Positions 908-54,912 of a stretch of 64,000 bases of DNA are shown here, piece by piece. A model generated the notes under the pieces. That model was given only the letters and a program-made list of their open reading frames with translations, had not been told where the DNA came from and did not search any database. Location: positions 1 through 64,000 of the forward strand of contig VHAT01000001.1 of NCBI GenBank assembly GCA_016872195.1, written 5' to 3'. The stretch comes from Sphingomonadales bacterium. Lineage in GTDB: Bacteria > Bacteroidota > Bacteroidia > Chitinophagales > Chitinophagaceae. The position numbers and the translations under genes are program-made. The stretch's first letter is position 1. Each line of letters opens with the position of its first letter.

Positions 908-1474
908 ATGAACAGAAGAGAACTGCTAAGATCAATTGCCCTGCTTACCGGAGCATCAGTGGTGGGAGCTGATTTTTTATTGATTGGTTGTACTAATCCG
1001 GCGGCCGGCCCCGCGTTGCTTTCCGCAGCTGATATCGCATTGCTAAATGAAGTGGCAGAAACTATTTTACCGGCCACGGACACCCCCGGAGCCTAAGCCG
1101 CCGAGGTAGGTTCCTTTATGTCTGTTATGGTAACTGATTGTTATACCAAGGAGCAACAAGCGGTAATTATAAACGGTCTAAAAGAGCTCGATGTAAAAGC
1201 CACATCTACAGCCCAGCAATCTTTTATGAACTGTACGGCCGAAAAAAGACACGAGGTATTGACCGTACTCGAAAAAGAAGCTAAGGCCTTTAATGAGGCC
1301 CGATCCGACAATGAGAAGCCCGTTCACTATTATACCATGATGAAACAGCTCACACTCTGGGGATTTTTCAGCTCCAAGACCGGTATGACCGAGACCCTTC
1401 GTCATATACCCGTACCGGGTCGTTATGATGGGAATGTCCCTTATACAAAAGGAGAAAAGGCCTGGGCCGAATAA
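908..1474 (+). pseudogene. Gluconate 2-dehydrogenase subunit 3 family protein, interrupted by in-frame TAA
   Basis: The ATG at 908 begins a twin-arginine signal (NRRELLR, then a hydrophobic stretch ending in a Cys), followed by the family's ILPATDTPGA segment. A TAA at 1094-1096 then stops the frame after 62 codons. The same frame resumes at once and runs to the TAA at 1474 with good family sequence: a DCYTKEQQ segment, MMKQLTLWGFF and a C-terminal PVPGRYDG...GEKAWAE. One nonsense codon, probably a former Lys or Gln codon, is therefore the only lesion; there is no frameshift. Family knowledge: the small subunit carries the Tat signal and brings the GMC partner to the periplasm. Loss would silence the pair, unless the stop is read through or is an assembly error. 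An alternative start within the second half, at 1118, would lack the signal. Confidence 0.85.
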
Positions 1475-53288: not shown

Positions 53289-54332
53289 ATGAAAGACCTT
53301 TCTCAGCACAATCCGAATTGCGTCAGCAACCCCAACCATAATCTGTTTGGGATTCCCACCTCCGAAGAAAATGCAAAACTGATCATCTTACCTGTTCCCT
53401 GGGAGGTAACCGTAAGCTATGGAGCCGGGACGGCCAGAGCACCAGAGAGCATCTTAAAGGCCAGTCATCATATGGATATTTATGATGATGAATTACCCGA
53501 TGAGTGGAAAGCAGGATTTTATCTGCAACCTTGCGAGAAAAAGATCCTGATGAAAAGCGATTACCTCAGAAGGGAGGCCGAGCTTTATATTGATTACATC
53601 TCGAAGGGTGATGACGTTAAGGATAATCGTTTCATGACCAAGAGCCTGAATGAGGTCAACGAGGGAAGCGCTTTTTTGAATCAATGGGTGTATGAACAAT
53701 GCATGCGTCTTTTATCCCAACATAAATTGGTCGGACTGTTGGGAGGAGACCATAGCACGCCACTGGGATACATGAAAGCCCTGGCGGAAACTAAAGGATC
53801 GTATGGAATTTTACAGATCGATGCCCATTGTGACTTGCGCAAAACCTACGAAGGGTTTAATTACTCTCATGCGGGTATCATGTATAATGCCCTGCAGGTA
53901 ATACCTCAGATCGAAAAACTGGTCCAAATCGGCGTACGCGATTATAGCCAAGAAGAATATCGCTATATACAGGAGAGTAATGGACGGGTACAAACCTATT
54001 TTGAAAAAGAGATCAGACATCGACAGCTAAGAGGAGAAAACTGGCACCAAACGACGCAAGAGATCATCGCCGCTATTCCTCAACAGGTCTATATTAGTTT
54101 TGATATTGATGGGCTAGACCGTAGTCTTTGTCCCGATACCGGAACACCTGTTCCAGGAGGTTTTCAACTCGAGGAGCTCTATCTTCTTTTTTCCGGCATC
54201 TTGTAAAGCGGACGTACCATCATCGGCTTTGATCTTTGCGAAGTGGGTGTCAGCGATAACGAATGGAATGCTAACGTAGCCGCCCGACTTCTGCTTAAAC
54301 TTTGTAACTTGCTTTCCGGCGCTAACCGCTGA
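53289..54332 (+). pseudogene. Arginase/agmatinase-family hydrolase, interrupted by in-frame TAA
   Basis: The frame from 53289 gives 305 residues with the ureohydrolase metal motifs: GGDHSTPLGYMKAL, IDAHCDLRK and SFDIDGLDRSLCPDTGTPVPGG. A TAA at 54204-54206 interrupts it just before the conserved final segment. The same frame goes on to a TGA at 54330-54332, reading SGRTIIGFDLCEVGVSDNEW and then AARLLLKLCNLL, the C-terminal helix of the family. So a single nonsense codon, probably a Lys codon, separates 305 from about 347 residues. The next gene starts eight bases after 54332, consistent with the full-length gene. Without the tail the fold would lose its last strand and helix. The substrate (agmatine, guanidinobutyrate or formimidoylglutamate) is unclear. 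Confidence 0.85.
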
Positions 54333-54339
54333 TCGCTGC

Positions 54340-54912
54340 ATGCAAAACCCCTTTTTGAACTTTCCACTACTGCTGATCAATACGCGAAAAAGGCAGTACC
54401 TGGTTCTGGGTAGGTTTCTAGTGTTACTAAGTGCTTCCCTACTAATTTATTCTGCCTTGCTTGCCGATCCCTCAAATAAATACAAAATGCTATTCGCGGG
54501 CATCATCCTTCCACTGATTCTATTGATCTGCCAACGCATCCTTTTTGCAAAAAAGAAAATCACAGCCGAAAGACAGGTCGATGTTTTCTTATTTATCATG
54601 ACCTATACCTGGCTTATCCATAGTTTTTACATTTTATTCGCCTTGTTACTACTATTACATTTCCTTTTTAAAATTTCGCTTAGAACGCTTAGGCTGGTAG
54701 TGGCCCCCGAAGGGATCCGCTATCCTTCTTTTCCTGCCAAGATGATCCCCTGGTCGCAGATCGAGAACCTGATCGTTAAGGACGATCTGCTGACGATCGA
54801 CACCAAAAAAAATACACTAATTCAGCAACTGATCGAGCCAAATAGCTTTATCGATTCCCAAGAGCTGGAAGCGTTCAACACGTATTGCCAACAGCAAATC
54901 AAAGCCGCCTAA
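54340..54912 (+). CDS. Membrane protein with soluble tail, coupled to a radical SAM gene
   Basis: The 190-residue protein has about four hydrophobic segments between residues 18 and 115 (for example VLGRFLVLLSASLLIYSALL, GIILPLILLICQRILFA and FYILFALLLLLHFLFKI). A C-terminal tail of about 70 residues, from LVVAPEGIRYPSFPAKMIPWSQIENLIVKD, resembles a small PH-like (bPH) domain. I recognise no named family. Its stop is immediately followed by the ATG of the next gene, so the two are coupled. Confidence 0.7.
   Translation: MQNPFLNFPLLLINTRKRQYLVLGRFLVLLSASLLIYSALLADPSNKYKMLFAGIILPLILLICQRILFAKKKITAERQVDVFLFIMTYTWLIHSFYILFALLLLLHFLFKISLRTLRLVVAPEGIRYPSFPAKMIPWSQIENLIVKDDLLTIDTKKNTLIQQLIEPNSFIDSQELEAFNTYCQQQIKAA

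Follow-up and report, generated by a model that had tools for sequence, protein, structure and literature searches.

The window, the whole 64,000-nucleotide stretch of DNA that was analysed, carries a gene of the agmatinase/ureohydrolase family whose reading frame is interrupted by a TAA codon, together with a similarly interrupted homologue of gluconate 2-dehydrogenase subunit 3, which sits just downstream of a GMC oxidoreductase gene (Table 1). The agmatinase-family frame opens with an ATG at 53289, meets the TAA after 305 codons and runs on for 41 more to a TGA at 54330-54332, and the ATG of the downstream gene at 54340 lies 7 bases past this tail. The original prediction had described both the interrupting TAA and a conserved C-terminal tail ending 7 bases before the next gene; the former is borne out by the ORF reading, the latter by alignment and by a gain in profile score. 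The dehydrogenase subunit gene is the only other interrupted gene found in the window, of which the relative's DNA used for comparison spanned a part, and its orthologues in the three nearest relatives contain no stop.

Table 1. Features of the two interrupted genes of the window, and two further lesions found elsewhere in the same genome
Feature	Location	Strand	Basis
Agmatinase/ureohydrolase-family (PF00491) gene, interrupted	53289..54332	+	Profile match and same-genus orthologues without internal stop
Shortened ORF, 305 codons	53289..54206	+	ORF reading
In-frame TAA, agmatinase-family gene	54204..54206	+	CAA (Gln) in nearest relative, GAC (Asp) in next two
Homologous tail, 41 codons and TGA stop, holding the invariant F-D-L-x-E segment	54207..54332	+	Alignment, profile
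Downstream gene, 190 aa, without Pfam family	54340..54912	+	ORF reading, Pfam search
Gluconate 2-dehydrogenase subunit 3 homologue (PF13618), interrupted	908..1474	+	PF13618 match, 3.8e-35 with X at the stop
In-frame TAA, dehydrogenase subunit	1094..1096	+	AAA/AAG (Lys) in three nearest relatives
Cation P-type ATPase pseudogene	Own contig 5, 64611-66294		TAA at codon 8 and out-of-frame loss of ~233 codons
Lipoprotein-like gene with in-frame TGA	Own contig 5, from 40875 (875-1954 of that piece)		Relative G015 has TGG (Trp)

The tail was compared with 28 homologues. Against the three nearest relatives its alignment is free of gaps, against others the length differs by at most 3 columns, and the columns F314, D315, L316, E318, W326, N329, V330, A332, R333, and L335 are invariant in all 29 aligned sequences. 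The tail is therefore taken to be real, as is the interruption in the sequence as given. When X is placed at the stop, the TIGR01230 score increases from 131 bits for the shortened form to 149.4 bits, and the end of the match moves from profile position 232 to 272 of 275. A match from genome G054 that contains one TAA was kept out of the alignment; its stop falls at aligned position 338, at the protein end, and it has Glu at the column of the TAA considered here.

Family membership is clear from the part before the stop, which matches PF00491 with 150.8 bits (gathering cut-off 22; 6.9e-44). The GGDHS, DAHxD, and SFDID motifs, which we take to bind the two metals, are all kept upstream of the TAA, where the alignment columns H155, D178, H180, D182, D272, and D274 are invariant; the conserved Glu of FDLxE, presumably in contact with the guanidinium group of the substrate, lies in the tail. 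Neither TIGR01230 score given above reaches the agmatinase equivalog cut-off of 174.3, and the two intact relatives that were scanned likewise stay under it (158.2 and 157.5), so the substrate of the protein is putative. The genome itself holds a second, open family member (C14), which is arginase-like with a score of 208.6 against an arginase cut-off of 227.6, and redundancy between the two genes is possible.

The gene was searched for in 34 of the 41 same-genus genomes that exist besides its own (all except G058-G064). An orthologue without internal stop is found in 23 of them, including G010 where it is cut at a contig end; one further orthologue is split over two frames, and the remaining ten genomes contain at most a distant family member. 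Among genomes no larger than 2.1 Mb, 9 of 14 lack the gene or carry it broken, as against 2 of 20 among those of 2.6 Mb or more (Fisher p = 0.002, uncorrected for relatedness), with incomplete genomes (72-87%) present in both size groups, among them the gene-less G006, G012, and G016. This pattern of absence and breakage indicates that the gene is dispensable. The genus as a whole falls into a group of small genomes (1.5-2.1 Mb) and a group of large ones (2.6-5.5 Mb), the gene being absent, within the 34 genomes searched, from most of the small ones. The copy lying over two frames (G023 contig 2, 66754-67787) appears from its match coordinates to be an independent breakage. The presence of arginine decarboxylase was considered as an explanation of the losses and turned out to be uninformative, since 41 of the 42 same-genus genomes have matches, none of which reaches the family cut-off. 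The single match from a related-locus search of genome contigs was weak and came from an unrelated bacterium, and a plasmid search gave only matches below 60% identity.

According to the original prediction, both TAA codons had replaced Lys. This agrees with the dehydrogenase subunit, where the three nearest relatives have Lys codons, and does not agree with the agmatinase-family site. There the nearest relative (G002, 87% identical) has CAA for Gln, G013 and G034 have GAC for Asp, and the column read by eye over the 28 homologues is variable (E 10, Q 6, D 3, R 3, A 2, M 2, K 1, H 1), with a stop in none of them. Judging from this distribution, Lys is not likely to be the ancestral residue of the site.

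Substitution patterns were compared between the genome and its close relatives. For the whole agmatinase-family gene against three of them, dS is at or close to saturation (1.6 to infinite) and dN is 0.04-0.10. Within the 41-codon tail, dN is 0.05-0.07 in pairs that include the own genome and 0.03-0.04 among the relatives, with dS of 0.3-0.6; the corresponding dN/dS values of 0.08-0.16 vs 0.04-0.07 come from very few changes. Codons changed in the own genome alone amount to 4 nonsynonymous and 33 synonymous ones in the agmatinase-family gene (2-3 and 18-27 in each relative) and to 8 and 20 in the dehydrogenase subunit gene (0-2 and 7-17 in each of G002, G013, and G034), the latter a hint that constraint on that subunit may be looser here. 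On these counts both interrupted genes, the agmatinase-family tail included, would still seem to be under selection, with no clear sign of relaxation. A tail that had long been free on this branch would be scrambled; either the stop is very young, or it is a base error, or the tail is still translated, and sequence alone cannot separate these three.

The rest of the genome was sampled for similar lesions. The stop scan compared 859,432 bases of the own genome (45%, window included) with 1,402,099 bases of the near relative G034, where 1,299 ORFs of the relative, a few of them possibly spurious, gave 606 usable comparisons; the first two versions of the scan had been flooded by antisense ORFs and by ORFs beginning before the true start. 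Of 46 stop rows, two were judged by eye to be real internal stops flanked on either side by conserved sequence, both of them in the window, and the other 44 were discarded by eye as positions ahead of the start or within the final codons, antisense matches, or non-coding DNA, one of them having been looked up. A stricter listing, also judged by eye, gave 9 rows for the own genome (the same two kept) and 7 for G034 (none kept), while the reverse scan of 607 own ORFs against G034 gave 56 rows with none judged by eye to be an internal stop, the zero for G034 being a soft one. The count of 2 against 0 is not significant (p = 0.25). The wider search for in-frame TAA codons thus found no other single internal TAA judged real in the 45% of the genome sampled.

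Two more damaged genes, both of which had escaped the 606-ORF scan, surfaced in a frameshift scan and in a scan of codon usage. The frameshift scan listed 4 rows for the own genome and 3 for G034, and of the two examined out of these seven, the other being L185 9325-10516, the cation P-type ATPase pseudogene was taken; G034 may hold comparable lesions. The codon of its stop is counted from the likely start, and long open copies are present in G013, G034, and G016 (838, 839, and 833 codons, respectively). A first version of the codon-usage scan detected neither of the known cases and was dropped. After tuning, the scan recovered the agmatinase-family case but not the dehydrogenase one, and it returned 67 junctions, of which 59 with an ATG within 12 codons were set aside; among the 8 viewed, six looked by eye like ordinary neighbouring genes and one more, with a TGA, was followed. 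This gene, named lipoprotein-like by eye from its start and without a Pfam family, is matched in 2 of 42 genomes, its own included. It was thus probably acquired or is rarely kept, and the only same-genus relative found, G015 (61% identity), has no stop. Its TGA means that TAA is not the only internal stop of this genome, and the out-of-frame deletion in the ATPase puts at least one gene beyond rescue by a suppressor or by readthrough. None of the three genes with a single stop (agmatinase-family, dehydrogenase subunit, lipoprotein-like) showed a second lesion.

With regard to decoding, the genome is a 1.90 Mb draft in 51 contigs with an estimated completeness of 100%. All anticodons were read for the 33 tRNA genes found with the Rfam model, and TTA does not occur among them. 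The 33 also include neither a tRNA for Ala nor an Ile tRNA with a GAT anticodon, which indicates that the assembly or the tRNA search is incomplete; the missing tRNAs probably reflect an unassembled rRNA operon. Both release factors score above their cut-offs (RF1 493.5 bits, RF2 463.5 bits) and have no internal stops. TAA terminates 286 of 559 orthologue-supported ORFs, in line with the earlier remark that other genes here stop at TAA normally. Global or partial recoding of TAA was rejected on the tRNA set, the normal release factors, the use of TAA as terminator and the small number of internal TAAs in the 45% of the genome sampled. Given the codon usage of the genome, TAA is expected to make up ~37% of chance nonsense changes, and two TAAs out of two (0.14) are therefore unremarkable.

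The reading we prefer, at a probability of roughly 0.73, is ordinary decay, in which a nonsense mutation of very recent date produced the TAA in an agmatinase-family gene that is dispensable; it is favoured by the relatives examined, none of which shares the stop, by the lack of a detected suppressor and by the other lesions of the genome. A new nonsense mutation would have created TAA at codon 306, where ribosomes would terminate to give a 305-residue product, and this product, having lost the stretch at the C-terminus that carries the conserved FDLxE Glu, would most likely be inactive. On this reading the tail has not yet had the time to drift and so would still look intact. The TAA allele would be real in the living strain. 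What speaks against decay is that the interrupted genes look selected, which readthrough or a sequence error would explain as well, that the part of the agmatinase-family gene before the stop has no second lesion, and that the accessible part of Belinky et al. 2021 (PMC7918605) favours readthrough for such cases. Of the options first put forward, namely decay, error, and suppressor-based readthrough, decay or a recent nonsense mutation is the one favoured here, and suppressor-based readthrough is left unsupported.

The most serious competitor, to which we give a markedly smaller though still appreciable chance, is that the TAA comes from a base-call or assembly-consensus error, or from a minority allele of the strain, the gene being intact in the living organism. 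The otherwise sound frame and selection signature of the agmatinase-family gene are compatible with such an error, as are the draft state of the assembly, with its 51 contigs and undetected Ala and Ile(GAT) tRNAs, and the single-stop genes without a second lesion. However, the large out-of-frame deletion plus stop in the ATPase is hard to obtain by base error, the rate of internal stops accepted as real is low, at two in 606 ORF comparisons, and the absence or breakage of the agmatinase-family gene in relatives marks it as dispensable.

Low-level readthrough by near-cognate tRNAs, or by an unseen suppressor, would supply some full-length enzyme and let selection keep the tail, and a tail that looks selected is what it would predict. 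We nevertheless hold it to be improbable. The suggested suppressor tRNA does not fit a set of 33 tRNAs without a TTA anticodon, intact RF1 and RF2, the lack of a stop in the 28 aligned homologues, and the lack of any further single internal TAA judged real over the 606 ORFs compared. As to near-cognate decoding, the idea of tRNAs with 4-bp anticodon stems, taken from the accessible portion of PMC13092985, was rejected here, the stems of the Gln, Lys, Tyr, and Glu tRNAs being drawn with at least 5 bp. Nothing obvious by eye is common to the contexts of the two internal TAAs, and the triplets that follow them also follow terminal TAAs (AGC in 2 and GCC in 8 of the 286). A stop conserved in relatives, as in programmed readthrough, is seen neither in the 28 agmatinase homologues nor in the three nearest dehydrogenase subunits, and the third single in-frame stop of the genome is a TGA.

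That the 305-residue protein is itself functional seems more doubtful still: the GGDHS, DAHxD, and SFDID motifs do all precede the stop, but E318 and other columns of the lost tail do not vary over the 29 sequences, and the alignment of solved agmatinases and arginases runs through this stretch. We consider it just as improbable that this small, shrinking genome tolerates a few in-frame stops (TAA, TAA, TGA) in genes still under selection, with termination leaky enough for useful amounts of protein to be made and the stops acting as short-lived dampers of expression ahead of gene loss.

If the stop is real, the genome has been caught losing a ureohydrolase that is already missing from many of its small-genome relatives, which makes the locus an ordinary snapshot of genome reduction. 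Two stops of the same type with well-kept tails in one window are not evidence of recoding.

The protein resembles the solved members of PF00491 (3lhl, a putative agmatinase, and 3pzl, an agmatine ureohydrolase) in its motifs and in the C-terminal FDxxE segment, and differs from the family in that its C-terminus is cut off by the TAA and its score lies below the NCBIfam agmatinase equivalog cut-off. In-frame TAA codons within conserved genes are also a mark of the reassigned-stop codes described, in the part of the text available, by an eLife 2021 screen (PMC8629427); unlike those codes, the present genome has such sites only rarely, lacks a detectable suppressor tRNA, uses TAA as its commonest terminator and has normal release factors. 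The closest comparison is with young pseudogenes and segregating nonsense alleles. As far as the available sections of Belinky et al. 2021 (PMC7918605) go, in-frame stops are widespread in bacterial genes that keep dN/dS below 1, and are interpreted there as frequent readthrough that may be useful for short periods. The pattern seen here is compatible with that view as well as with decay, and the genome offers no additional support for readthrough. The stops in that study are common to at least two genomes, whereas here one genome represents the species and the stop occurs in no relative examined; the single in-frame stop, the conserved flanks and the low dN/dS are alike in both.
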